Below are positions 7,710-63,286 of a stretch of DNA of 64,000 bases, piece after piece. The DNA lies in assembly GCA_035487355.1 (NCBI GenBank), contig DATHMF010000050.1, forward strand, positions 1 to 64,000, in the 5' to 3' direction. The stretch is from Terriglobales bacterium. Its GTDB lineage: Bacteria; Acidobacteriota; Terriglobia; Terriglobales; Acidobacteriaceae. The notes under the pieces were generated by a model. It saw nothing but the letters and a program-made list of their open reading frames with translations. It had not been told where the DNA came from and ran no database searches. Within the stretch, counting starts at the first letter, position 1. Each line of letters begins with the position of its first letter. Position numbers and translations under genes: made by a program.

Positions 7710-8660
7710 TTGAGCGGCCGCATTCTCCCCGTGCTGTGTATCTCCGTGGCAGTTGCTATTGCTGGGTGCGATCACGCGACGCCGGGGAACTGGAATTCGC
7801 CAAACGCGGAAGCGCAATCACTGTCGGTCGGCAATGCGTCCGGGTTGACGATGCAAGTGGCTGAAGAGCATGCAGGTCCGAGCTTGTGGATCAGTATCCC
7901 CGGTGAACCATCGGGCCAACAAGCGGTTTTTGTTCTCTTGCCTGAACATGTTACGGTCCGCAGACACGGCACAGATCAGGCTGAGCACCTGTACCTGTGG
8001 CGGCCGGGCAAAGCTGGTCAGCGCTTTAACTGGACGCGTATTGGGAACGCTTTACAGTGGGAGACGGAGTTCGCGTCCGGTATACATTTTCTGGCGCGAG
8101 TTTCCCTGGAACCCGATGGCGTTCTTTACCACTACGAGTTTATTAACCGGTCGGACGTAGATTTCGATTCCGTTCAGGCGGTCACTGACCCGCGAATGGT
8201 CTCACCTCTGTTCCACGACGTCCGGCTCGAACGAACTTATATCCACACTCCCAACGGCTTCGTTTTACTGGCCTCCGAAATGCCCGAACGTTTAACGATG
8301 CCACTCGACACCTGGCTGCCTAATCGGTATCGCGCTTCATTCGCGTGGCCCGTTCCAAGCGATCGTGTGCAGAGGCAGGCCGATGGCGTCACGTTCTTTA
8401 ACGCTTCTACGAAGGCCGATCTGCCAGTCCTTGTCACTTCATCGGTGGACCACCGTTGGTTTATGGCTACGTTCTCTCGCAACCCAGGCAACTTATGGAC
8501 GAATCCTGAGCTTACTTGCCAGCACGCCGACCCGGAAATCCCCCTCTTGCGCAAGAGTCAAGGGGTAGTCGAGGAGAAGATGTTGCTTTTTCAGGGAGTA
8601 CTGGATGACGTTATCAGCAAGGTACGTCAACAGCGTGAAGGTTTAAAATTAGGTTCGTAG
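7710..8660 (+). CDS. Lipoprotein of unknown function
   Basis: The frame opens with TTG at 7710; an AGG sequence lies about 9 bases upstream. This start gives a complete lipoprotein signal (ILPVLCISVAVAIAGC, lipobox IAGC, lipidated Cys about residue 20), which supports it. The mature 297 residues are rich in beta strands and aromatic residues (LYLWRPGKAGQRFNW, YHYEFINRSDVDFDSVQAV), suggesting a beta-sandwich of the sugar-binding or mutarotase-like kind, but I cannot name the family. It probably sits on the periplasmic or outer face of a membrane. The next gene starts 190 bases downstream, so it may be a separate transcript. Confidence 0.75.
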   Translation: MSGRILPVLCISVAVAIAGCDHATPGNWNSPNAEAQSLSVGNASGLTMQVAEEHAGPSLWISIPGEPSGQQAVFVLLPEHVTVRRHGTDQAEHLYLWRPGKAGQRFNWTRIGNALQWETEFASGIHFLARVSLEPDGVLYHYEFINRSDVDFDSVQAVTDPRMVSPLFHDVRLERTYIHTPNGFVLLASEMPERLTMPLDTWLPNRYRASFAWPVPSDRVQRQADGVTFFNASTKADLPVLVTSSVDHRWFMATFSRNPGNLWTNPELTCQHADPEIPLLRKSQGVVEEKMLLFQGVLDDVISKVRQQREGLKLGS

Positions 8661-8851
8661 CCAGGTAAGTGCGCGGATGCAAGGGCTTGACTTCAGGCGG
8701 CTTGCTGCAGAAAGTTCTGAAAATCATCCCGCCAGGCGGGCGACTAAATTCCTTAACAAATTACCCTTAAGCTGCTGTGGATTTGGCTACATTAGATTCA
8801 GATTAAAGACCTTTTACCAAGTCGCGCTTTCCGTTAGACTTGCGTGCACAC

Positions 8852-11116
8852 ATGAGACAGTCAAGGCCAGCAGGATTTAACCGAATATTCATTTTTGCGC
8901 TCGGTCTTGGCTTGAGCCTCACGACGGCGGCCGCCGGACAGCAAGCAGGTTCTTCTAAACCAACGGAGAGCGGCCAGGCACCAGCTTCTTCGTCTACGCC
9001 GCCTTCATCTGACTCATCTTCCTCGACCGTCACTTCTGTAAAACAGAGGTCCGCATCAGCCGGAGTTGGCCGGCGCATTCCTGAGCACCGCGTCAGAGGA
9101 GGGCCGGGGCCGGCGGCGCTGCTGGGCCGTGTGCAGAGTACGGATGGGAGCCCGCTGGGTGGGGTCCAAGTGATCTTGACGCCTGCGAACGGGAAGAAAG
9201 TTGTTCGCCAGAGTGGGGGCGATGGAATCTTTCGCATACCTGGGGTCCCTCCGGGAAAATATCAGTTCAGCTTTCAACTGACGGGGTTCGATCCGCTGGT
9301 GCAAAACGAGGTCACGCTCAATGCGGGAGAAGTGCTGACGATTGAGGTCAAGCTGCACGCCACGGGTGTGGCGGCGAGCGCTGGTGGCATCCCGCAAAAA
9401 CGTATTCCCACGGAACGCCCGATGCCTGAGAGCAACCTGGGAGCTGAGCAGGCCGAAGCTTCCGACTATCACGAGCTTTTCCGCCGGCCGGTAGAAGAAA
9501 TGCAGGCACAACTTCAGCCGGAGAATATTCCTGACTACAAGGTCATGATTCCCGATCCGGACCGCTGGGACCCGAGCATGCCGGCGTGGCTCAGGTACGA
9601 CCGCAGTGGAGAATTCCCCTACACGAGCAGCCACTGGTGGGACCCGTTCAACCAGAACCGGCTCAAGGGCGACAAGCCCATCTTTGGGCAGAACACGTTT
9701 TTTAATTTCACGGGAACGAGCACTACGGCAGTGGATGTGCGCAATCTTTTTGTTCCCAGCGGGGTCTCGGCGCAAAACGCGGGCAGCAGCAAGTTTTTCG
9801 GAAAAGGCGGACAGGTTTTTCTGGAAGAAACGGTGCGGCTCTCCTTCGATCTCTTTCATGGCGATACCAGCTTCAAGCCGGTCGACTGGCGCGTAAAAAT
9901 CACGCCTGCCTTCAACATCAATCAGATATGGGCGAAAGAGCGCGGGATCGTCAACATTGATGTCCGCAAGGGCAGCAACCGCACCGATGGACACGTAGGG
10001 CTGCAGGAAGCGTTTGTTGAGAAAAAAATCGCCGACCTCGGGCCCAATTACGATTTTATTTCTGTGCGGGCCGGCATTCAGCAGTTCACCAGCGACTTCC
10101 GCGGATTGCTGTTCTCGCAGGAGCAACCCGGGGTTCGCGTCTTCGGGAACCTGCGATCGAACCGGTTTCAATACAACGCCGCCTATTTCTTCTTCCTGGA
10201 AAAAAACACCAACAGCGGATTGAACACCTTCGAGAACCGCCATCAGCAGGTGTTCCTGGGGAACTTTTATATACAGGATTTCTTCGCGAAGGGTTACACC
10301 ACGCAGTTCAGCTATCACTACAACAAAGACGACGCCAGCGTGCATTTTGATGACAACGGGTTCCTGGTGCGTCCGGCGCCGATTGGCAGCGTGCGGCCGC
10401 ATAACATTCGCGCCTACTACATCGGATGGACGGGCAATGGGCACATCAAAAAAATAAATATCAGCCACGCTTTTTACCAGGCGCTGGGCCATGATGACCT
10501 GAATCCGATTGCCGGGCGGCGGACGGACATTAATGCGCAGATGGGGGCGCTTGAGCTTTCCGTAGATAAAGACTGGGTGCGCTTCCGCGCCTCGGCATTT
10601 TTTGCTTCGGGTGACGACAAGCCGCGAGACAGCGAGGCACGCGGATTTGACGCTATCAGCGAAGCGCAGACGTTTGCCGGGGGCATCTTCAGCTTCTTTA
10701 ATCGTGAAGGGATCCGCCTTACTGGAACGGGCGTTGGTCTGGTTGCGCCCGACAGCTTTTTGCCGAACCTGCGTTCGAGCAAAGAAGAGGGACAGGCGAA
10801 CTTTGTTAATCCGGGACTGGTGCTGGGGAATGTGGGCGCCGACTTCAATATCACCCCGAAAATCCGTGCGGTGACGAATGTGAACTACATGCGCTTTCAT
10901 CACACCGATCCGCTGGAGCTGTTGCTGTTCCAACCGCACATCAACCAAAATATCGGATTGGATTACAGCGTAGGCGTAACTTACCGGCCGCCGCTCTCGG
11001 AAAACATGGTGATTACGGGCGGCGTGGCTGCACTTACTCCGTTTACTGGTCTGCGGGAAATTTATACCGGCAAGACCTTGGTTTCAGCATTCACAACAGT
11101 CCGTTTTCAGTTTTGA
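8852..11116 (+). CDS. Outer-membrane beta-barrel protein with carboxypeptidase-regulatory domain, partner of the multihaem cytochrome
   Basis: The ATG at 8852 is preferred to an in-frame TTG at 8840 because it starts the signal peptide ([21 protein letters not shown]). After a Ser/Pro/Thr-rich linker (residues about 30-70) comes a carboxypeptidase-regulatory-like Ig domain ([34 protein letters not shown]). The remaining ~550 residues alternate aromatic and polar positions like a large barrel and end in the typical FTTVRFQF. The stop is 14 bases before the start of a ten-haem cytochrome, so the two form an operon. Barrel-cytochrome pairs conduct electrons across outer membranes in known porin-cytochrome systems; that role here is inferred from context, and this barrel does not obviously belong to the known Mtr or Omb families. 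Confidence 0.8.
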
Positions 11117-11130
11117 GGCGCGCACTAAAG

Positions 11131-14100
11131 ATGACGAGCCATTTGAAAAACAGAAACTTTCGGCCGTGGATTCTAATACCAGTGGCCAGCATTTTTTGTT
11201 TGCTGCTTTTTTCTGTTTTTTCAGTCGGGAGGGCGTCCGCCCCGGTGGAATCCGTGAAACCTAAAGAGGCTGTGCCGCCGCCTCCGCGGCCAGCGCCTCC
11301 GGTATTGGCCGGGCAATCCCAAGAGGAGGTGGACGCAAAAACCGCTGGCTGCATCTCGTGCCACACCGCTACTGAAAGCGCCAGCATGCATCCCACGGAC
11401 ACAGTGCATCTGGGATGCACCGACTGCCACGGCGGCAAGGCCGAGGTAACGCTTCCGCCTGGGACTGCAGCAGGCTCTAGCGTGTATGAAGAGCTTAGGC
11501 AAAAAGCGCATGTGGCGCCGCGCTGGGCGGTGGATGCGCGGTCTTCGGCCAATCCGGTGCGGGCGTACACGAAGTGGCTGCAGGAAAGCGCGGAGTACAT
11601 TCAATTCGTCAACCCGGGAGACCTTCGCGTCGCCGATCGAACCTGCGGCACCGCTGGTTGCCACGTACCTGAAGTACGGCGCGTGCGCACCAGCATGATG
11701 ACGCACGGCGCCATGCTGTGGGCAGCCGCGCTTTATAACAACGGGTCTTTCCCACTGAAGAACGCGCACTTTGGGCAGAGCTATAGCCCGGAGGGGGTTC
11801 CGCAGAAACTGCAGACATGGCCTCCGCCGACTGATGAAGAGACGCGCAAGAAAGGAATCCTGCCTTACTTGCAGCCGCTGGAGCGCTGGGAGATTTCACA
11901 GCCCGGCAACGTGTTGCGCGTCTTCGAACGCGGCGGAGAGAAGCGGGCGGAGCTGGGCAATCCTGAAACAGAAGAAGAATCTGGACGCCCGGATGCTAAG
12001 TTGAGCAACCGTGGCTTTGGGACGCTGCTGCGCACCGATCCGGTCTTTCTGGGATTGCAGAAGACGCGGCTCTTCGATCCGCTGCTCTCTTTCCCTGGAA
12101 CCAACGACCATCCGGGAGACTATCGCGGCAGCGGTTGCACCGGTTGCCACGTGATTTATGCCAACGACCGCGACCCGGTGCATTCGGGCACCTACGGGGA
12201 GTTTGGCAATGAGGGCCACAGCGCCACGGTTGATCCTACGATTCCCAAAAACGAACCGGGACATCCCATCCATCACGTCTTCACCAAGAGCATTCCCTCG
12301 AGCCAGTGCATGGTGTGCCATATACATCCGGGGACGAACATGGTGGCCAGCTATTTTGGCTACACATGGTGGGACAACGAAGTGGACGGCGAAAAGATGT
12401 ATCCCGCCAAGCAGCACAACCCGAGCCAGGAAGAATATCGCGAAGTGCACATGAGCAATCCTGAGGGCTCGGCGGCGAAAGGGTTGTGGTCAGACGCGGA
12501 GTTCCTGAAAAAAGTAGGATCACCGGAATTTAACAGCCAGCTCAAGAACACGCAGTTTGGCGACTTTCACAGCCACGGTTGGATATTTCGCGCCGTCTTC
12601 AAGCAGGACCGAAAAGGGAACCTGCTGGATGAAAGCGGAGAGATCATCTCGCCCGATGATGCGGAGAAGTTCAAGAAAGCCGTGCAGTTGAAGGATATCC
12701 ACCTGGAAAAAGGCATGCACTGCGTGGATTGCCACTTCTACCAGGACGCACACGGCAACGGCAAGCTCTACGGAGAGACACGGAATGCCATCGAGATTTC
12801 ATGCGTGGATTGTCATGGAAGCATCCAGAGCTATGCCGCGCTGGCGACTAGTGGCCCAGCCGCTCCCAATGGCGGCGGCACGAATATGCTAGGCATGCGA
12901 ACGCCGTGGAAGGAATTACGCTTCTACTGGAAAGACGGAAAGCTGTTCCAGCGTTCATCGGTCGAGCAGGGACGCGAGTGGGAGATCGTGCAGGTCAAGG
13001 ACACGATCACTCCCGGCAATGAGCATTACAGCGAAAAGTCACGGCTGGCGAAAACCATTCAGAAAGACGGTACCACATGGGGCGGCGTTCCTGATCCCGA
13101 TCACCTTCTTCACCTGGCGCACTCCGACAGCCGCATGACCTGCTTCAGTTGCCACAGCTCATGGACCACAACCTGCTTTGGCTGCCACCTGCCCATGACC
13201 GCCAACCAGCGCATGCCTATGCTGCAGAACGAAGGCACCATGACGCGCAACTGGACGGAATATGATTTTCAAGTCCTGCGCAACGACATGTACATGCTGG
13301 GCATTGACGGCACAGTGACTGGAAATAAAGTTGCGCCGATCCGCTCCGCGTGTGCCGTGGTTGTGAGTTCGCAAAACCAGAACCGCGACTGGTTGTATTA
13401 CGGGCAGCAAACAGTTTCAGCCGAAGGGTTCAGCGGGACGGCATTCAGTCCTTATGTGCCACACACGGTGCGGGCCAAAGAGACCAAGACTTGCACTGAT
13501 TGCCATGTTTCCAGCGCCAACAACAACAATGCCTGGATGGCGCAGTTGCTGTTGCAGGGCACCAACTTTCTGAACTACCTGGGGCGCTTTGCTTACGTGG
13601 CCACAGGAGACAAGGGATTTGCCGCAGTCGCATTTGCCGAGCGCAAGGAACCCGAAGCAGTGATTGGCAGCGACCTGCACAAGATTGCATATCCGGACAA
13701 CTACCGCCTGCATCAGCAGGAAAAACTGGAGCTGAAAGAAGCTTACGAGCACAGCGGAAAGGAAGTATTGGACATACAGTTGCGCGGAGAGTATCTCTAT
13801 GCCGCCATGGGCAAGGGCGGGCTGCGCATCTATGACGTAGCCAACATCGAGAACAAAGATTTTTCTGAGCGCATGGTGACGGCGCCGGTCTCTCCCCTGG
13901 GACAGCGTTTGTATGTACCGACGCGCTACGCGATGGCGGTAGCCGCGCCCAGTACTACCGCGCTTGATCCCGCGCGCAAGCATTTCCCGGAAAACGAAGA
14001 GCAGGCAATTCATCCTATCTATGCATTCCTGTACGTTGCCGACAAATACGAAGGGCTGGTCATCGTTGGCGATGCCTCGCCAAAGAGCAGAACTCCCGGC

Positions 14101-48821: not shown

Positions 48822-49715
48822 CTACATCAGCTCCTCAATAAATGCCTTGGCGGCGTCGGGTGGGACGTGCATGTCCCTGTGCACCAGCGGGCCTTCGTTG
48901 ACCACCGGCTCCGAGGCGTGCAGGGTGGGAACATCGTTGCGCTCGAAGAATTTTCCAATGGGGATTTCGTCACCCCAAAGCAAAGATTTGCCCATGGCAG
49001 CCATCCAGTCGTTAGCATCGTAGGCAGCATCGTCTTCCAGCTTCTTTACGCGGGGACGGAACCACTGGTACGTATTGTCGAGGTTGTAGGTCACGCATGG
49101 GCTGAAGACATCGAGGAACGAAAAGCCTTTGTGCTCGATGCCCTGCTTGATGAGGTCGGTCAAATGTTTCTGCTCGCCGCTGAAGCCGCGAGCTATGAAA
49201 GTTGCGCCGGCAGCCAGGGCCATGGAAATGGGATTAATGGGCGCTTCGACGTTGCCGAAGGGCGCGCTTTTGGTCTTCATGCCCAGGCGGCTGGTGGGTG
49301 AGGTTTGGCCGGTGGTGAGGCCGTAGATCTGATTATCCATGACGATATAAAGCAGGTCGACGTTACGGCGCATGGTGTGGACGAAGTGGTTGCCGCCGAT
49401 GCCGAATCCGTCGCCGTCGCCGCCGGTGACCAGCACGGTGAGCGCGTGATTGGCGAGCTTTACCCCGGTGGCCACGGCGAGGGAGCGCCCGTGCAGGGTA
49501 TGCATGCCATAGGTGCTGATGTAACCGGGAAAGTTGGAAGAGCAGCCGATGCCGCTGATGGTGACGACTTCATGAGGGGGGATCTGCAACTCGACCAGGG
49601 CCTTCTGTACGGCGGCGAGCACGCCGAAGTCGCCGCATCCCGGACACCAGTCGGGATCAACCTTGCCTTTCAGATCGGCCATGGTGAGTGGCTTGGGGGG
49701 CGCTATGGTTGCCAT
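48822..49715 (-). CDS. korB: 2-oxoacid:ferredoxin oxidoreductase beta subunit
   Basis: A 297-residue thiamine-diphosphate subunit. The TPP motif is visible (GGDGDGFGIGGNH ... NVDLLYIVMDNQIYGLTTGQ). Four cysteines expected for the [4Fe-4S] cluster are present: two in DWCPGCGDFG, one in GIGCSSNF and one in SPCVTYN. With the alpha/gamma subunit 11 bases upstream it forms an enzyme that decarboxylates 2-oxoacids (most often 2-oxoglutarate or pyruvate) to the CoA thioester, reducing ferredoxin. Kor-type is the usual call for this short two-subunit form; the substrate is not certain. Confidence 0.92.
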   Translation of the reverse strand: MATIAPPKPLTMADLKGKVDPDWCPGCGDFGVLAAVQKALVELQIPPHEVVTISGIGCSSNFPGYISTYGMHTLHGRSLAVATGVKLANHALTVLVTGGDGDGFGIGGNHFVHTMRRNVDLLYIVMDNQIYGLTTGQTSPTSRLGMKTKSAPFGNVEAPINPISMALAAGATFIARGFSGEQKHLTDLIKQGIEHKGFSFLDVFSPCVTYNLDNTYQWFRPRVKKLEDDAAYDANDWMAAMGKSLLWGDEIPIGKFFERNDVPTLHASEPVVNEGPLVHRDMHVPPDAAKAFIEELM

Positions 49716-49726
49716 TTTCTTTCTCC

Positions 49727-51523
49727 TTAAACCATGATTTCGTGCATCGGAACAGAAAGATTTGTCTTCCCGCTCAACTGCTCTTTCACCGCCTCAACGA
49801 TATGGTGCGGCATGAAGGGTTCGCCATCATACTTGCGGATGTTCCCATCGGGTACGAAGCTGGTTTCACTGCGCAGGTAGCGCGCAAACTGTCCGCTGTA
49901 GTTGTTCTCGACGATGATGGTGTGCTTCGCGCCCTCGAGAAGATCGAGAATCGCCTCGCCGTGCAGCGGCACCAGCCACCGTATCTGCAGGTGATTGGCA
50001 GAGATGCCCTGCTCGCGCAGCAGCTCACATGCCTCTTCGATCACGCCCTGGGTTGAGCCCCAGCCAATGAGCGTGACATCGGCCTTGCTCGGGCCCTGCA
50101 ATGTGGGCGGTGGAGCTGCGGCCGTGATGCCCTCCATCTTGCGCATGCGCTTTTCCATCATGGCGCGGCGCTTGATGGGATTGGTGAACTCGTCGCTGAT
50201 CAGCACTCCGTCTTCGTCATGCTCGTCGGTGGCAGCCGTGTGGGTGTGTCCGGGCACACCGGGAATAGCGCGCGGAGAAACTCCGCTCTCGGTAATCTTG
50301 TAGCGCTTGTAGATGGTGTCTGCACCGCCGTTGCTGCTTCCGTTCCCATTGGCGGAAGTGATCAACTCGCCGCGATCGATCCTGGGATTGAAATTCAGCT
50401 CCTTGGGGTCAACGCTGAGCCTGCCCTCCGACAGCAACAGATCGCAGAGCACCAGGCCGGGACACTGGAACTTGTCAGCAATGTTGAATATTTCAGGGAT
50501 CAACGTGAAGCAATCGCCGATGTCGAGCGGGGCGGCGATGACGCGGGGATAATCTCCGAAGGCGGCGCCCAGCATCTGCCAGAGGTCACCTTGCTCGGTC
50601 TTGGTGGGAACTCCGGTAGAAGGGCCGGCGCGCTGGCAGTTGATTACAACTACTGGCGTCTCCATCATTGCGGACATGCCCAAGCCTTCGCTCATCAGGG
50701 CGAATCCGCCACCGGAAGTCGCACACATGGCGCGAACGCCCGCGTGCGCGGCGCCGATGGCCATGTTGACCACGCCGATCTCATCTTCCACCTGGCGAAC
50801 CATGATGCCGGCCTTGCGCCCGTGCGACGCCATCCAATGCAAGACCCCGGTTGAGGGACTCATGGGGTACGCGCAATAAAATTTCACACCGGCGGCCGCC
50901 CCACCCATGGCCATGGCCGTGTTACCGGCGAGCACGGCGTACTTGTGTTCCGTCATGGGCAGCGGGCGGGCAAAGGGCTTGAAGTTAGCAGAGCCGTAAT
51001 CATAGCCGGCGCGCGCCACTCCGACGTTTTCCGCGACCACGGCCTCACCTTTCTTCTTGAACTGTTCGGCGAGGACGCTCTCCAGCGACTGGAAGCCGAT
51101 GCCCATCATGCTGAGCGCCGCACCGAGCGCGAGCGTATTCTGCGCGACCTTGTTGCGAGTGATGTCCGCCAGTTTCGAAACTGGAAGCGGGCAGAGTTGC
51201 ACGCCAGAAGCGGCGACGCCGGGCTTGATGGCGTCGGCATTGTAAATGCAAGCCGCGCCAGCGGTGAGCAGACTCAGGTGGCGGTCCATGGTGTCCTGGT
51301 TCAGAGGGATCAGCAAGTCAATGCGGTCTCCCATATTGGTAACTTTTTCACGACCGGTACGAATGGTCAGAAAAGTGTGACCGCCACGAATAATCGATTG
51401 ATAGGCGTTGTAGGCGTTCAGGTGCAGTCCGCGGCGGCTGAAGATTTTGGCGAAAATGTCGCCAGGAGTGGCTACACCCTGGCCAGCCGCGCCGCCAATA
51501 GCAATGGAGAAGGTCTCCCTCAT
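49727..51523 (-). CDS. korA: 2-oxoacid:ferredoxin oxidoreductase alpha subunit with fused gamma domain
   Basis: The ATG at 51523 follows GGAGCTATCCTA and gives 598 residues. Residues 1-190 are the gamma domain (ETFSIAIGGAAGQGVATPGD ... RGGHTFLTIR). The rest is the alpha subunit (NTAMAMGGAAAGVKFYCAYPMSPST, EDEIGVVNMAIGAAHAGVRA, ATSGGGFALMSEGLGMSAMMETPVV) with a C-terminal domain III (IGWGSTQGVIEEA, IIVENNYSGQFARYLR). It is the first gene of a two-gene operon. Reduced ferredoxin from it could feed ferredoxin-dependent enzymes such as the oxygenase at 59.7 kb, but that link is inference. Confidence 0.93.
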   Translation of the reverse strand: MRETFSIAIGGAAGQGVATPGDIFAKIFSRRGLHLNAYNAYQSIIRGGHTFLTIRTGREKVTNMGDRIDLLIPLNQDTMDRHLSLLTAGAACIYNADAIKPGVAASGVQLCPLPVSKLADITRNKVAQNTLALGAALSMMGIGFQSLESVLAEQFKKKGEAVVAENVGVARAGYDYGSANFKPFARPLPMTEHKYAVLAGNTAMAMGGAAAGVKFYCAYPMSPSTGVLHWMASHGRKAGIMVRQVEDEIGVVNMAIGAAHAGVRAMCATSGGGFALMSEGLGMSAMMETPVVVINCQRAGPSTGVPTKTEQGDLWQMLGAAFGDYPRVIAAPLDIGDCFTLIPEIFNIADKFQCPGLVLCDLLLSEGRLSVDPKELNFNPRIDRGELITSANGNGSSNGGADTIYKRYKITESGVSPRAIPGVPGHTHTAATDEHDEDGVLISDEFTNPIKRRAMMEKRMRKMEGITAAAPPPTLQGPSKADVTLIGWGSTQGVIEEACELLREQGISANHLQIRWLVPLHGEAILDLLEGAKHTIIVENNYSGQFARYLRSETSFVPDGNIRKYDGEPFMPHHIVEAVKEQLSGKTNLSVPMHEIMV

Positions 51524-51668
51524 TAGGATAGCTCCAAGTGGAAGTTCTGAGTCTGATCCGAAGAAAAAGGGCCCCACAGGATTTTTGATCCATCCTGTGC
51601 GCTCCCAAGCATACACCCGAAACGCAGCTACAGGCTATAAGGTGCGGGTTGTTCTGCAGGCTTTATAT

Positions 51669-56783: not shown

Positions 56784-57320
56784 ATGAAATCCCTTCGCGT
56801 ACTGTGTGTTGTTCTAATTTCGCTCTCGACTGTGGCTTTTGCCCAGTCCGACGCGCAAAAATCTTTCGACAAACTAAAAACTCTGGCGGGCACCTGGCAA
56901 GCCTCGGTGACCGTCGACCCGCCACAGAAGGATATGGGAGACGGAACGACGACGCAGGTCACAGTGCGCGTGACCTCCCGCGGAAACGCGCTGGTGCATG
57001 AGATGCACGAGATAGGAAAGCCAGACGATCCGACGCGTTACGACCATCCGGTTACGATGCTCTACCTGGATGGCGATCGTCTGCTCCTGACGCACTATTG
57101 CGACGCTGGAAACCGGCCGCGCATGGTCGCCAAGACCTCGCCGGATGGGAAGAAGGTGGAATTCGATTTTCTCGATCTCTCTGGCGGCAATGAGTACGGG
57201 CACATGTACCACGCCGTGTTCACGATTATCGATGCTAACCACCACACAGAAGACTGGACTTATATGATGCCGGGCGACAAGCCCCTGCACGCGCACTTCG
57301 ACCTGAAGCGGGCACAGTAA
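56784..57320 (+). CDS. Secreted DUF1579-like protein, first gene of the GntR/ABC operon
   Basis: AAGGAG stands 8 bases before the ATG. The 178-residue product has a signal peptide (LRVLCVVLISLSTVAFAQ) and a beta-rich mature part with a LAGTW motif (LKTLAGTWQASVTVDPP) and DGKKVEFDFLDLSGGN, consistent with lipocalin-like DUF1579 proteins. It precedes the regulator by 29 bases and is the first gene after the palindromic operator, so it is co-regulated with the ABC transporter. It may be a periplasmic sensor or binding protein for the compound exported; this is inference. Confidence 0.75.
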   Translation: MKSLRVLCVVLISLSTVAFAQSDAQKSFDKLKTLAGTWQASVTVDPPQKDMGDGTTTQVTVRVTSRGNALVHEMHEIGKPDDPTRYDHPVTMLYLDGDRLLLTHYCDAGNRPRMVAKTSPDGKKVEFDFLDLSGGNEYGHMYHAVFTIIDANHHTEDWTYMMPGDKPLHAHFDLKRAQ

Positions 57321-57349: not shown

Positions 57350-57772
57350 ATGGAACGTGAGTGGAATGACAGTCAGCCGATTTACCGCCAGCTTCGTGAC
57401 CGAGTGGTCGCGATGATACTCGACGGAGTGCTCAAGGAAGGCGACCCGCTGCCTTCGGTGCGCAATGTCGCGACCGAATATAGGGTCAATCCGCTCACGG
57501 TCCTGAAGGGCTATCAAGAACTCGTGGACGAGCAACTGGTCGAGAAGAGGCGAGGTCTCGGCATGTTCGTCAAAGTGGGCGCGCCCAATCTGCTGCTGCA
57601 GGGCGAACGCCAAAAGTTTCTGGCCGAACAATGGCCCAGGATCCACGCAACCATTCAGCGGCTCGGACTGAAACCGGAAGAACTGCTGGATGCTGCCGCA
57701 AAACGTCCCTCGTCGCCGGATGCTGTAGGGGCGGATGCCGCAAAGCCGGATGCTACAGACAAGGAGCGTTGA
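57350..57772 (+). CDS. GntR-family transcriptional repressor, YtrA subfamily
   Basis: A 140-residue regulator: winged helix at residues 8-75 with the GntR pattern QPIYRQLRDRVVAMI...EGDPLPSVRNVATEYRVNPLTVLKGYQEL and the wing VEKRRGLGMFV. The short C-terminal helical region with no large effector domain is typical of the YtrA subfamily, which represses ABC-transporter operons. It is followed 6 bases later by an ABC ATPase gene. The palindrome at 56682-56707 is its probable site. Confidence 0.92.
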   Translation: MEREWNDSQPIYRQLRDRVVAMILDGVLKEGDPLPSVRNVATEYRVNPLTVLKGYQELVDEQLVEKRRGLGMFVKVGAPNLLLQGERQKFLAEQWPRIHATIQRLGLKPEELLDAAAKRPSSPDAVGADAAKPDATDKER

Positions 57773-57778
57773 AAGCCC

Positions 57779-58654
57779 ATGGCATGCATAGAAGCAAAGA
57801 ATCTCCGCAAGGCCTTTGGCACAACCGTCGCGCTGGACGGCGTCAATTTGCGTGTCGAAGAGGGCCGCATCCTGGGACTCATCGGTCCTAACGGCGCAGG
57901 CAAGACTACCGCGCTGAACGCAATTCTGGGCCTAACCCCATATCAGGGAGAGCTGAAGGTTCTCGGACGCGACCCCTGGAACGAGCGCGATCAGCTCATG
58001 CGCGATGTCTGCTTCATTGCCGATGTGGCCGTGCTGCCGCGCTGGATAAGGGTTTCGCAGGCGCTTGATTACGTTGCCGGCGTGCATCCGCGGTTTGATC
58101 GCGCGAAGGCGGAAGGGTTTCTTGCCAGGACCACCATCCGGCATGGCAGCAAGGTCAGGGAGTTGTCGAAGGGCATGGTGGCCCAACTGCACCTCGCTCT
58201 GGTGATGGCCATTGACGCGAAGCTGCTGGTGCTGGATGAGCCGACGCTGGGCCTCGACATCCTCTATCGCAAGCAGTTCTACGATTCGCTGCTGAACGAC
58301 TACTTCGATCGCCACCGCAGCATCGTGGTGACGACACACCAGGTGGAAGAAATCCAGCACGTCCTCACCGATCTCATGTTTATCAACCAGGGCCGCATCG
58401 TATTCGCTTGCAGCATGGAAGAATTCGAGTCGCGCTATGTAGAAGTCACGGTGCGTCCCGAGCATGTCGCCGCCGCCCGTGCGCTCAAACCCATGTACGA
58501 GCGCCAGGTTTTCGGGCGCAGCATTTTGCTATTCGACCATGCCGATCGTCAGCAACTCGCCCCGCTTGGCGACATGCGCACGCCCAGCATCGCCGACTTG
58601 TTCGTTGCCGTCATGAGCAGTCAGGCGGGGCAGGCACAAGGAGCAGCTCAATGA
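57779..58654 (+). CDS. ABC transporter ATP-binding protein
   Basis: A 291-residue ATPase with Walker A GPNGAGKTT, Q-loop region, signature LSKGMVAQL (the LSGGQ equivalent, with the variant common in YtrB-like exporters), Walker B KLLVLDEPTLGLD and switch His in VVTTHQ. The C-terminal ~80 residues form the accessory domain seen in this group. It overlaps the permease gene by an ATGA, so the two are co-translated. Together with the GntR gene it forms a stress-induced export or permeabilising ABC system; the substrate is unknown. Confidence 0.93.
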   Translation: MACIEAKNLRKAFGTTVALDGVNLRVEEGRILGLIGPNGAGKTTALNAILGLTPYQGELKVLGRDPWNERDQLMRDVCFIADVAVLPRWIRVSQALDYVAGVHPRFDRAKAEGFLARTTIRHGSKVRELSKGMVAQLHLALVMAIDAKLLVLDEPTLGLDILYRKQFYDSLLNDYFDRHRSIVVTTHQVEEIQHVLTDLMFINQGRIVFACSMEEFESRYVEVTVRPEHVAAARALKPMYERQVFGRSILLFDHADRQQLAPLGDMRTPSIADLFVAVMSSQAGQAQGAAQ

Positions 58655-59556
58655 ATACTCAACCGAATGCTGTGCCCGAGTCCCCGGCCGACTCCCAGCA
58701 AACCGCGGCCACGGCGGCGACCCGGCCTATGTATTGGTCGGTGCGGCGTGAATTGTGGGAGAACCGCTCGATCTATGTCGCGCCACTGGCTGTCGCGGCA
58801 GTGGTAGTGTTCGGCTTCTTGGTCAGCACGCTTACTCTTCCGTACCGCATGCATGCGGCGTCGGCGCTCAATCCGGCCGAGCAGCAGGCCGCAATGGCAG
58901 AGCCCTACACAATCGCGGCGTCGCTGATCCTGGGGGCCACTTTTATCGTCGGGATTTTTTACTGTCTGGACGCGCTGCACGGGGAGCGCCGTGATCGCAG
59001 CATCCTGTTCTGGAAGTCGCTGCCGGTCTCCGATCTTACGACAGTGCTTTCGAAGATGAGCATTCCAATGGTCATTCTGCCGGTGCTCGGTTTCGCAATC
59101 GCTGTAGTCACGCTGTGCATCATGCTGCTGCTGAATGCCCTAGTCCTGTTTGTGAGCGGTCTCAGTGTCTCGACGCTCTGGGCACAGGTGCCGGTGTTCC
59201 GGATATCGCTGGTCCTGTTCTACCACTTTCTGACCGCGCATGCGCTCTGGTATGCGCCCATCTACGGCTGGCTGCTGCTGGTCTCAGGCTGGGCGCGGCG
59301 CGCGCCATTTCTGTGGGCCGTCTTACCGCCGCTCGCGATCTGCGCCATCGAGAAGCTTGCGTTCAACACGATGCATTTCGCCAACCTGCTGCAGTACCGC
59401 TTGGAGGGAAATCCGGATAGCGGCCTGCATTTCCCGCTGGTGCAGCTCACTCCGTTGAAATTCCTGAGCGCGCTGGGTCTGTGGACCGGGTTGGCGCTGG
59501 CTGCGGTATTCCTGATCGCAGCGGCCCGGCAGCGCCGCTATCGAGGACCGATTTGA
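58651..59556 (+). CDS. ABC-2-type transporter permease
   Basis: The ATG at 58651 overlaps the ATPase stop, with AAGGAG before it. The 301-residue membrane protein has six or more hydrophobic helices (VAPLAVAAVVVFGFLVSTL, IAASLILGATFIVGIFYCL, ILPVLGFAIAVVTLCIMLLL, LFYHFLTAHALWYAPIYGWLL, TGLALAAVFLIAAA) and the motif ERRDRSILFWKSLPVSD, characteristic of ABC-2 permeases after the second helix. It forms the membrane part of the exporter. Confidence 0.9.
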   Translation: MNTQPNAVPESPADSQQTAATAATRPMYWSVRRELWENRSIYVAPLAVAAVVVFGFLVSTLTLPYRMHAASALNPAEQQAAMAEPYTIAASLILGATFIVGIFYCLDALHGERRDRSILFWKSLPVSDLTTVLSKMSIPMVILPVLGFAIAVVTLCIMLLLNALVLFVSGLSVSTLWAQVPVFRISLVLFYHFLTAHALWYAPIYGWLLLVSGWARRAPFLWAVLPPLAICAIEKLAFNTMHFANLLQYRLEGNPDSGLHFPLVQLTPLKFLSALGLWTGLALAAVFLIAAARQRRYRGPI

Positions 59557-59660: not shown

Positions 59661-60419
59661 ATGGAACCCGTTATTGGCATTAACAGCTCAGCGATTGAAT
59701 GTACGTCTGTCTCAACCAGCGCTCCCATCTGGCAGGATGTGCTGGCACAGGCGATCACCGGTGAACTGCTCGCCGCAATGAACTACAAGTCTTTAGCCGA
59801 AATATGTGACAACGCCGAAGAAGCAGCCGATGCCCTGGAGCATGCGGAGAATGAACACGGACATGCTGCTGCGTTCGCTGCCGAGGGCCGCAAGATTGGA
59901 GTGAACGTGACGAGCAACGTCGAGGGGATGCATTGGAAGCGGCTCCGCGAAGCATTCCTGCGCTGCATCGCCGAGCGTGATTTTATTGGCTGCCTGATCG
60001 TCCAGGAGATCATGCTGGAATCCTTTGCCGTCGCCAGCTATGCACGCGTCGCTAAGGTCGGGCCGGGGAGTCTGGGCAAGACCTTTGCCCGCATCGCAGC
60101 CGAGGAAGAAGAGCACGTGGATCACGCCCTGGCGATTCTCAGAGCGGAGCGGGCCCTGGACGCCCAGCGTTTCGACGACAAGGTATACCGGCTGCATCTG
60201 GAAGTGATGACCACGCTCGCCAAGATGCTGGCGAAGGAATGCAAGGATGGACACTGCGAGGTGTGCCATGGCAGTTGTGTGAAGCCATCGCTGTTCCAGG
60301 TCAGCTTATCAGCAGCCCAGTTGCGCGGAGCGTCATTGCAACAGTATTTGAAGACGCTCGACATGCTGGGGCTGCCCGGGGAGGTAACACTCGCATGGGT
60401 CACTCAGTTGCCAGTGTAG
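59661..60419 (+). CDS. Aldehyde-deformylating oxygenase-like di-iron protein (alkane synthesis)
   Basis: AGGAGG precedes the ATG. The 252-residue ferritin-like protein aligns by eye with cyanobacterial aldehyde-deformylating oxygenase, which turns fatty aldehydes into alkanes using O2 and reduced ferredoxin. The di-iron ligands are all in place: Glu35 (ITGELLAAMNY), Glu65-x2-His68 (ENEHGHAAAF), Glu120 (IVQEIMLESFAVASY), Glu149-x2-His152 (AAEEEEHVDHAL). The cyanobacterial enzyme is ~231 residues; here a short Cys/His-rich insert (CKDGHCEVCHGSC, 194-206) is added near the end. The reductase gene overlaps its 3' end by 25 bases. Other ferritin-like roles remain possible. Confidence 0.82.
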   Translation: MEPVIGINSSAIECTSVSTSAPIWQDVLAQAITGELLAAMNYKSLAEICDNAEEAADALEHAENEHGHAAAFAAEGRKIGVNVTSNVEGMHWKRLREAFLRCIAERDFIGCLIVQEIMLESFAVASYARVAKVGPGSLGKTFARIAAEEEEHVDHALAILRAERALDAQRFDDKVYRLHLEVMTTLAKMLAKECKDGHCEVCHGSCVKPSLFQVSLSAAQLRGASLQQYLKTLDMLGLPGEVTLAWVTQLPV

Positions 60420-61618
60420 CTGTCTCTGGGCGGACGATCGAGCAGGTTGATTTCGCCCTGATCGGCCATCAGGAGAGTTGGAAAGCAGCCGCGGACGTAC
60501 TTGCTGTGTTGCGCGGACCGGAGCATACGCCTCTGCCGGACGATGAGATCAAAGACATCCTTCCATGGATTCCGCCCAGGGCGGTCTGCCATGTCGAAGT
60601 CGGATCGATCGTCAGTACAAAGATCGGGGGCGCCAAATTTAAGTCGCGCGGCCTCTATATCGACTCATTCATTCCTCCCGACCGTCTGGATGCCGCTTAC
60701 ATTCACGAGAACCTCGCCTGCGTTCGAAGGGCGGCGGCCTGCGCCATCAACGCGGGAGCCAAGATCGTGAGCCTCGGCGGATTCAGCTCCATTCTGATCG
60801 AGGGCAACTTCGATCAGCTTCCGGAAAGGCACGATACGGTCTTTACGACGGGCAATACGTTGACGGTTGCTTTCATCGTTCAGGGCATCAGGAAGATGTG
60901 CGCGCTGGAGGGCCAGGAGCTCCGAAGATCAACGCTGCTCATCGTTGGGGCAACGGGCGATGTGGGTTCCGGGTGCGCCCGTTGTTTAGCGCCTGGGGTG
61001 AAGCGCGTGCTGCTCAGCGCACGCAACCTGGAGCGGCTACGCAGGCTCGCCGCCGAGCTCGAAGCTGACGGAATCGAGGTGGAGATTGCGACGGATCTTC
61101 GGCAGTTCTCCGCAGAAGCCGACATCGTGATCTGCGCAGCGAGTCTGGCAGCCCCTTCGCTACTGTTGGGCCGGATCGCACCGCACGCAATCGTTTGCGA
61201 TGCGGGCTACCCGAAGAACCTGTCTCCAAGCGTGGAGATGCCTGGCGCCAAGGTCTTCTTCGGAGGCCTGGGCCAGATCACCGGCGGATTGAGTTTCGCG
61301 CCGGATTTTCATGGAATTCTGAATCGGCATCCGTTTCCCGATGTGGTCCATGGATGTCTACTCGAAGGCATGGCTCTCGCTCTGGAGGGCCGCTACGAAC
61401 CCTTCTCTCAGGGAAGAGGGTTCATCACCCGGGAGCGCGTCGAAGAGATTGAAACCATTGCTGCACGGCATGGGATCTATCTCGCACCGCTTTACAACGC
61501 CGATGGTCCAGTACAGGACGCTCTTGGTTGCCGGACAGAATGGCCGGGAGGACTGAGTGCGGGGGCGAGAGACCAGATCGAACTAACGCAGCCCGATCTG
61601 CTCCCACGGACGTTTTAA
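60395..61618 (+). CDS. Long-chain acyl-ACP reductase-like protein (fatty aldehyde formation)
   Basis: The ATG at 60395, with GGGAGG upstream and inside the end of the oxygenase gene, gives 407 residues. It matches the cyanobacterial acyl-ACP reductase pattern along its length: FALIGHQESW, GRYIESC-like GLYIDSFIPP, IVSLGGFSSILIEGN, FTTGNTLTVAFIV, the NADPH-binding VGATGDVGSG (184-193), LLSARNLERL, CDAGYPKNLSPSV, and GCLLEGMALALEG containing Cys321, which lines up with the catalytic cysteine of the cyanobacterial enzyme. It has about 45 extra C-terminal residues. It should reduce acyl-ACP or acyl-CoA to fatty aldehyde for the preceding oxygenase. Confidence 0.85.
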   Translation: MGHSVASVAVSGRTIEQVDFALIGHQESWKAAADVLAVLRGPEHTPLPDDEIKDILPWIPPRAVCHVEVGSIVSTKIGGAKFKSRGLYIDSFIPPDRLDAAYIHENLACVRRAAACAINAGAKIVSLGGFSSILIEGNFDQLPERHDTVFTTGNTLTVAFIVQGIRKMCALEGQELRRSTLLIVGATGDVGSGCARCLAPGVKRVLLSARNLERLRRLAAELEADGIEVEIATDLRQFSAEADIVICAASLAAPSLLLGRIAPHAIVCDAGYPKNLSPSVEMPGAKVFFGGLGQITGGLSFAPDFHGILNRHPFPDVVHGCLLEGMALALEGRYEPFSQGRGFITRERVEEIETIAARHGIYLAPLYNADGPVQDALGCRTEWPGGLSAGARDQIELTQPDLLPRTF

Positions 61619-61685: not shown

Positions 61686-61949
61686 ATGATTCGAGAACGA
61701 GTGCTCAAGGTCGTATTGATGTTAGTGGGGTTGCTCTTTTTGGCAGGTGTTTACCCGCTCTTGAGATGGCAGCCGAATCAGACAATCGAGCAGATGCTCG
61801 GCGGCATCTATGCCGCACTGGGGATTTTTCTGCTGCTTGCGTCACGTAACAGGTCAGTGAATCGCGGCTTGATCGCCTTCACGACGTGGTCGACCGTTGC
61901 TCACGCAGCCATCATGACACTGCATTTCCACTTGTTATGTTCAATGTAG
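61686..61949 (+). CDS. Small membrane protein, unknown
   Basis: AGGAGG stands 7 bases before the ATG at 61686. The 87-residue product has three hydrophobic segments (VLKVVLMLVGLLFLAGVYPLL, MLGGIYAALGIFLLLAS, FTTWSTVAHAAIMTLHFHLL) with two His in the last. It resembles small uncharacterised membrane proteins found beside oxidoreductases. It lies between the reductase and another membrane protein on the same strand and could belong to the same operon. Confidence 0.75.
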   Translation: MIRERVLKVVLMLVGLLFLAGVYPLLRWQPNQTIEQMLGGIYAALGIFLLLASRNRSVNRGLIAFTTWSTVAHAAIMTLHFHLLCSM

Positions 61950-62009
61950 AAGTGATCGCAACATCGTTGCATTGCGTGGCACCGTTTGACCAGACTTAAG
62001 GAGTGCAGA

Positions 62010-62789
62010 ATGCGATTTTTACCCATATTGGTTCTTCATATTTGCGGGGGAATCTTAGGCCTGTTGTCCGGTACAGTAGCAATGTCTTTGCGCAAAGGCT
62101 CCAGCCGGCACGCTGTGGCGGGAAATGTATTTGTCATAGCCATGGTGTGCATGGCCGCAAGCGGGTCGTATCTGGGGTTCATGAAGCACCAAATGAACAA
62201 TGTCTTCGGCGGCATTCTAACGATCTATCTAGTGACAACGGCATGGGCAACAGCCCGGCGCAGGGAGGGTGAAACTGGCATTTTCGATTGGGCGGGATTT
62301 CTAGTTGCATTGGGCATCGGAGCCCTCAGCGTGGCCCATGGGCTAGAAAAGGCCACAGGCCGCATTGGGTCAGATGATGGCGTTCCCGCCGGCATGGATA
62401 TCTTCATGGGCTCGGTGATTCTGCTTGCTGCCGCGGGAGACCTTCGCATGCTCGTGCGCGGCAGTCTTTCTGGCACGCAACGTCTGGTACGCCATCTTTG
62501 GCGCATGTGCTTTGGGCTGTTTATTGCTACAGGATCTTTCTTCATCGGACAGCAACAGGTATTCCCCGCTTTTATACGCAAGACAAACGTACTTTTTATC
62601 CCAGGTATCCTGCCACTGATCTTGATGATTTTCTGGCTGGTCCGAGTTCGCTTCGCAAATGCATATAAGATCAAGTCGATGCCCGGCAGAGGTGACGTTT
62701 ATTCCCCTACGGACTTAGCCTTAGACCCCTCCTTCCCGCAAGACACAGGCGGGAACAGCAATAGAACCAGAACAAGGATGTCCACATGA
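62010..62789 (+). CDS. Multi-pass membrane protein, DUF2306-like
   Basis: The ATG at 62010 follows AAGGAG by 6 bases and gives 259 residues with about seven membrane helices (LPILVLHICGGILGLLSGTV, VFVIAMVCMAASGSYLGF, FGGILTIYLVTTAWA, AGFLVALGIGALSVAHG, IFMGSVILLAAAGDLRML, MCFGLFIATGSFFIG, GILPLILMIFWLVRV). Scattered histidines (H9, H64, H113, H161) could be haem or metal ligands. It resembles the DUF2306-type membrane family; function unknown. Its stop overlaps the start of the next gene by ATGA. Confidence 0.75.
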   Translation: MRFLPILVLHICGGILGLLSGTVAMSLRKGSSRHAVAGNVFVIAMVCMAASGSYLGFMKHQMNNVFGGILTIYLVTTAWATARRREGETGIFDWAGFLVALGIGALSVAHGLEKATGRIGSDDGVPAGMDIFMGSVILLAAAGDLRMLVRGSLSGTQRLVRHLWRMCFGLFIATGSFFIGQQQVFPAFIRKTNVLFIPGILPLILMIFWLVRVRFANAYKIKSMPGRGDVYSPTDLALDPSFPQDTGGNSNRTRTRMST

Positions 62790-63286
62790 AGGCAATCGTC
62801 TGTCGAAACTACGGTTCGCCCGATGTCCTAAAGTATGAAGAGATTGAAAAGCCGACCCCTGGGGACAACGAAGTTTTGATCAAAGTCCGCGCGGCTTCCG
62901 TCAATCCAGTTGACCGGCTCTTCCGAGGCGTGCCGCATGTCCTTCGCATAATGACCGGGCTGCGCAAACCAAAGGACCCACGAGTCGGCGTGGATGTTGG
63001 CGGCCAGGTTGAAACGGTCGGCAGGAACGTAACCCAGTTCAAGCCAGGCCACGAGGTGTTCGGCGCGTGCAAAGGTGCCTTTGCCGAGTATGCGTGTGTT
63101 TCCGAGTCAAGATTGGCCATGAAGCCGAATAAGGTAACGTTTGAGCAAGCGGCTTCGGTACCTGTGGCGGCATTGACCGCATTGCAGGGCCTTCGCGACA
63201 AGGGACAGATTCGATCGGCGCAGAAGGTTTTGATCAACGCTCGGGGAAAAGTAGTAATAACTTTGGAATATAACGACAAAACCTAA
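62786..63286 (+). pseudogene. NAD(P)-dependent alcohol dehydrogenase (MDR/quinone reductase-like) with large internal deletion
   Basis: The 166-residue frame begins as a normal medium-chain dehydrogenase: MKAIVCRNYGSPDVLKYEEI, VLIKVRAASVNPVDRLF, GVDVGGQVETVG, VPVAALTALQGLRDKGQ, QKVLINA. At this point family members continue into the Rossmann fold (ASGGVGTFAVQ...). Here it instead jumps to RGKVVITLEYNDKT, which is the typical extreme C-terminus of these proteins (HARGKVVITLE.N.KT). About 165 residues holding the NADPH-binding fold are missing, in frame and without a stop. It should be non-functional as an oxidoreductase. It is translationally coupled to the membrane protein gene upstream. The 63287-63461 gap shows nothing. 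Confidence 0.8.

Follow-up and report, generated by a model that had tools for sequence, protein, structure and literature searches.

A deeply diverged pair of ADO-like and AAR-like genes in Acidobacteriota: relationships, genomic linkage and predicted function

The conversion of fatty acids to alkanes by two enzymes, acyl-ACP reductase (AAR) and aldehyde-deformylating oxygenase (ADO), has been described as a cyanobacterial trait. The stretch of DNA analysed here (64,000 nucleotides, hereafter the window) was predicted to carry the genes of this pathway in an acidobacterial genome, raising the question of whether the two proteins are indeed relatives of the cyanobacterial enzymes and, if so, whether they are likely to make the same product. 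The host is acidobacterial, as originally supposed, and no reports of AAR/ADO in Acidobacteria were found in the literature searched; an aldehyde decarbonylase has been noted, by annotation, on a contig related to Flavobacteriaceae (PMC10176705).

Relationship of the pair to the cyanobacterial enzymes

Re-examination of the sequence reconfirmed both open reading frames and their 25-base overlap, in which the ATG of the AAR-like gene lies inside the 3' end of the ADO-like gene (Table 1). An AGGAGG stands upstream of the ADO-like ATG at 59661. No conserved regulatory palindrome was found upstream of the pair, and scans for promoters and terminators returned signals at chance level only.

Table 1. 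Coordinates of the gene pair and linked features in the window
Feature	Position	Strand	Basis
Protein of 178 aa from no known family, N-terminus resembling a signal peptide; opens the cassette	56784..57320	+	recurs upstream of GntR
GntR-family regulator of the exporter cassette	57350..57772	+	PF00392, 2.8e-13
ABC transporter ATPase of the cassette	57779..58654	+	PF00005, 3.8e-21
ABC-permease-like membrane protein, 301 aa, no Pfam hit	58651..59556	+	linkage to the pair
ADO-like di-iron oxygenase gene, 252 aa	59661..60419	+	ORF; PF11266, PDB and fold matches
Cys-rich insertion C-x4-C-x2-C-x3-C (CKDGHCEVCHGSC), codons 194-206 of the ADO-like gene	60240..60278	+	family alignment
AAR-like acyl-thioester reductase gene, 407 aa	60395..61618	+	TIGR04058, PDB 6jzq, residue map
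DUF6632 and DUF2306-like membrane proteins downstream of the pair	61686..62789	+	Pfam, neighbourhood comparison

The ADO-like protein matches the ADO profile PF11266 with 47.5 bits (2.6e-12), above the gathering score of 28 bits; among 14 control genomes this profile found a match in Synechococcus elongatus alone. The sequence-profile match extends over residues 26-160 only. In searches of the PDB by sequence, cyanobacterial ADOs take the first 20 places, and a weakly matching Dps-like protein comes next. The AlphaFold model (pLDDT 76.8, with a C-terminal part of low confidence) points in the same direction, its top 21 PDB entries all being ADOs with Z-scores of 21.6-18.9, the best at an rmsd of 2.8 A over 209 residues. 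The R2-like ligand-binding oxidases and rubrerythrin-type ferritins share the helical-bundle di-iron fold, but their best Z-score is 18.0, reached by the R2-like oxidases, and their sequence match is marginal or absent. Thus ADOs, and not other ferritin-like oxidases, come first both by sequence and by predicted fold, and a generic ferritin identity was ruled out by the profile, sequence and fold comparisons. The six di-iron ligands that had been predicted in the right order map onto the S. elongatus enzyme (SeADO; the reference sequence is 100% identical to PDB 4quw), with E35, E65, H68, E120, E149 and H152 corresponding to E32, E60, H63, E115, E144 and H147, and they are invariant in all 26 aligned family sequences, the window's included. 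Equivalents of SeADO Y39, Y122 and C106 are likewise shared, as is the gene order of ADO followed by AAR.

The AAR-like protein is matched by the TIGR04058 profile with 137.4 bits (7e-40), and its PDB matches include AAR (6jzq, 9e-30) and, more distantly, PigE (4ppm, 9e-13); ordinary short-chain dehydrogenases reach 2e-4 at best, and a short-chain dehydrogenase identity was ruled out by the profile and sequence comparisons. Relative to S. elongatus AAR (SeAAR; reference sequence taken from the PDB alignment with the AAR-like protein), the predicted catalytic residue Cys321 aligns with Cys294, the Rossmann motif GATGDVG (185-191) with the dinucleotide loop 162-GATGDIG-168, and R210, R214 and R341 with the NADPH-phosphate arginines R189, R193 and R314, all of them invariant in 21/21 sequences. 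The roles of these SeAAR residues and of the loop are those given in PMC7089970. The AlphaFold model of this protein had a mean pLDDT of 49.8 and was left out of the analysis. The thioester-reductase domains of PigE, KecF and TamH, which reduce a thioester to an aldehyde in the prodigiosin, koreenceine and tambjamine pathways (PMC8341465, PMC6498172, PMC9594044), belong to the same reductase superfamily but are fused to an aminotransferase, whereas the AAR-like protein is paired with an oxygenase.

By these comparisons the two proteins are homologs of ADO and AAR, and no other family comes as close. They differ from the cyanobacterial enzymes, compared here as PDB chains (4quw, 2oc5 and 6jzu_B for ADO; 6jzq for AAR), to the extent of retaining only 22% identity to SeADO and 34% to SeAAR. 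Both fall within the ADO/AAR superfamilies yet outside the NCBI equivalogs, because their scores lie far below the equivalog cut-offs (about 50.4 bits against a curated 222.65 for TIGR04059; 449.7 bits required by TIGR04058). On this sequence basis the pair is a separate, deeply diverged branch of superfamily members rather than a set of orthologs. The original prediction favoured old divergence over recent transfer: the deep split from the cyanobacterial enzymes bears out its first part, whereas transfer is indicated within Acidobacteriota (see below). Its appeal to the greater length of both proteins as a sign of age does not hold, as the excess in the ADO-like protein is mainly a single Cys-rich insertion, and that in the AAR-like protein consists of an N-terminal extension and a variable, unconserved C-terminal tail.

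Divergence of the substrate pocket and docking face

Three departures from cyanobacterial ADO bear on the nature of the product. First, the SeADO pocket cysteine C70 is replaced by Glu75 in the window, and the family as a whole has 24 Glu and 2 Ala at this position; the equivalent C71 of the Nostoc enzyme is reported to be invariant among 133 ADO-family sequences and to be required for full activity (PMC4383598). Second, SeADO binds AAR through the acidic helix 7 residues E196, E200 and D201 (PMC7089970), which align with Ala219, Gly223 and Ala224, although the alignment there crosses an insertion; the partner arginines R73 and R118 of AAR are not kept either, being replaced by Tyr102 and His146. 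Third, the insertion itself, which is absent from cyanobacterial ADO, sits at helix 7 relative to SeADO, where AAR docks, and carries cysteines of which C199, C202 and C206 are present in 26/26 family sequences and C194 in 25/26. The insertion may bind a metal, although the predicted model is of low confidence at this place. Because the pocket cysteine and docking acids have been lost and a Cys-rich insertion gained, the product may differ from that of cyanobacterial ADO.

These features lend themselves to another explanation, which we consider a tentative but real possibility, namely that an aldehyde-forming reductase is coupled to a di-iron oxygenase that oxidises the aldehyde, or another acyl-derived substrate, to something that is not an alkane; the insertion would then carry a metal or Fe-S center that supplies electrons or shapes the pocket. 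The invariant C-x2-C-x3-C core at the docking place, the pocket replacement and the loss of docking acids favor it, as does a gammaproteobacterial ADO-like protein (L044) that is also rich in cysteines at this position and has as neighbours an aldehyde-type reductase of another kind (NAD_binding_4) and an ArsP_1 permease. Against it, the fold, ligands and pairing in the window's family are all of the ADO type, and no extra tailoring enzymes are conserved. The L044 region (8544-12014; genome G580, which shares its class with the gammaproteobacterial MAG discussed below) encodes a 283-aa ADO-like protein with a PF11266 score of 71 bits, its Cys-rich stretch being C-terminal, along with a small Cys-containing protein and ABC transporter genes, and is possibly an uncharacterised biosynthetic cluster. 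As this second kind of ADO-like protein occurs in a gammaproteobacterium and near a reductase of a different family, the superfamily is evidently wider than cyanobacteria and its chemistry is not to be assumed.

Conservation, exporter linkage and probable horizontal spread

A scan of genome contigs, which reaches close relatives only, recovered 23 loci; with one exception, they come from MAGs whose titles name Acidobacteria or their classes. The two genes are a conserved pair, in line with the prediction of a functional unit: an AAR-like sequence lies downstream of the ADO-like gene in 26/26 non-window loci, and a start codon is kept at the same 25-base overlap in 24/26 sequences, the window's included (23 ATG, 1 GTG). 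Four AAR-like copies from MAGs look split or interrupted, the match being split between frames in L015 and L019, ending early in L011, and containing an in-frame TGA in L033 (genome G339); these may be assembly errors or decay. No third enzyme is conserved near the pair among the loci compared, and the pathway therefore probably ends with the product of the oxygenase. A search for relatives on plasmids gave no match to ADO and a single weak, partial match to AAR. AAR-like proteins with 27-34% identity to the window's also occur in five other acidobacterial genomes (G139, G378, G120, G108 and G372; loci L034-L038), several of them within ORFs of about 700 aa; an ADO-like gene was not found in these genomes.

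Between the window and its relatives both genes show dN of 0.06-0.12 against dS of 0.43-0.87, and hence are under purifying selection. This bears on the proposal that the reductase is the functional part, supplying fatty aldehyde for alcohols, waxes or ether lipids, with the ferritin-like protein as an accessory in, for example, peroxide or iron handling. Such a role might be read from a match to the Pfam family Rubrerythrin (1.2e-6) and from weak matches to encapsulin ferritin-like proteins, but selection constrains the ADO-like gene no less than the reductase (dN/dS of about 0.12-0.15 versus 0.15-0.19) and its model matches ADO above ferritins, making this account improbable.

The pair is also linked to a putative exporter. 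A cassette of GntR regulator, ABC ATPase and permease accompanies it in 16 loci and the permease in 4 more (20/26), and pieces of the ATPase are 72-90% identical in relatives with the pair. The cassette lies upstream of the pair in most loci and downstream in L024 and L048; the linkage has therefore outlasted rearrangement. Among 297 sampled genomes of the phylum the permease occurs in 19, including all 3 holders of the pair, for which a hand calculation from the counts gives a chance probability of about 2e-4. Membrane proteins of the DUF2306 and DUF4386 families recur around the pair in relatives. The 178-aa protein, which like the permease belongs to no Pfam family, recurs upstream of GntR both with and without the pair; loci L097-L107 contain the cassette headed by this protein without the pair, sometimes with DUF2306/DUF4386 proteins. 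Elsewhere in the window, positions 62786-63286 hold an alcohol-dehydrogenase-like ORF of 166 aa with only the N-terminal GroES-like domain, possibly truncated (a related gene in L004 is longer, at 319 aa), and 48822-51616 on the reverse strand probably encodes a two-subunit 2-oxoacid:ferredoxin oxidoreductase, as judged by eye from the translation.

The phyletic pattern of the pair is very patchy: the ADO-like protein is present in 3 of 396 genomes of the phylum, the window's own included, and the PF11266 profile finds 3 of 297, so that fewer than 1% of sampled Acidobacteriota genomes possess it. The copies are nevertheless more alike than the genomes that carry them. ADO-like proteins of the window and other deep acidobacterial lineages are 73-81% identical, against 54-58% for GyrB, and the two identities correlate poorly (Spearman 0.26); L022 and L024 share 93.5% in GyrB and 74% in ADO, and L006 and L022 share 52% and 82%, respectively. 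At third codon positions ADO is less diverged than GyrB in 148 of 153 (non-independent) pairs, and three clades with full support in the GyrB tree are not recovered by the ADO tree. AU tests of clades for transfer were borderline for ADO alone (p 0.037) and not significant for ADO and AAR concatenated (p 0.38), for which reason we base the case for transfer on distance discordance and patchiness. Given this patchiness and the similarity of the copies, the pair likely spreads horizontally within Acidobacteriota, with misbinning of MAGs as the main caveat. A MAG named Gammaproteobacteria has a 4.3-kb contig (L005, JACQER010000130.1) on which the GntR-ABC genes again accompany a copy that reaches 91% identity to those of Acidobacteriota; this copy may be misbinned or a cross-phylum transfer.

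The rarity of the pair and the broken look of some MAG copies of the reductase could also be taken to mean that it is a decaying or misannotated remnant devoid of function. The strong purifying selection, the invariant active sites and the exporter linkage kept across transfers speak against this, and we regard it as highly improbable.

Proposed function and implications

Taken together, we favor a two-enzyme fatty-acyl pathway that shares its ancestry with cyanobacterial AAR/ADO but has diverged deeply from it, and assign it a probability of about 0.5. In this pathway the AAR-like protein would bind a long-chain acyl-ACP or acyl-CoA and form a thioester on Cys321, from which reduction by NADPH, as the conserved residues suggest, would free the aldehyde; its conserved sequence features make the formation of an aldehyde from an acyl-thioester likely. 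The ADO-like di-iron protein would then oxidise the aldehyde with O2 and external electrons, the simplest outcome being deformylation to a Cn-1 hydrocarbon and formate. A Cn-1 hydrocarbon or alkane is a plausible prediction for this step. Linkage suggests that the product, perhaps a membrane-active lipid or hydrocarbon, would be handled together with the GntR-regulated ABC exporter and the small membrane proteins, and distances and patchiness suggest that the module moves horizontally among Acidobacteriota. In a bolder form, which we consider rather unlikely as a whole, this would be a mobile, exporter-linked acyl-aldehyde oxygenase system with a built-in Cys-ligated metal or Fe-S site serving electron supply or a non-alkane product, and thus a second, non-cyanobacterial type of AAR/ADO.

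What is new here is the constant AAR-like partner, the linked GntR-ABC cassette, the likely horizontal spread, and the Cys-rich insertion along with the pocket and docking changes. Acidobacteriota are a major phylum of soils, and a conserved, mobile pair related to these enzymes among them would mean that non-phototrophs, too, produce fatty aldehydes and perhaps hydrocarbons. For ADO engineering it would supply a natural enzyme that differs in its pocket and in its interface with AAR. The exporter and the membrane proteins linked to the pair would offer a handle on the role of such hydrocarbons in cells without thylakoids.
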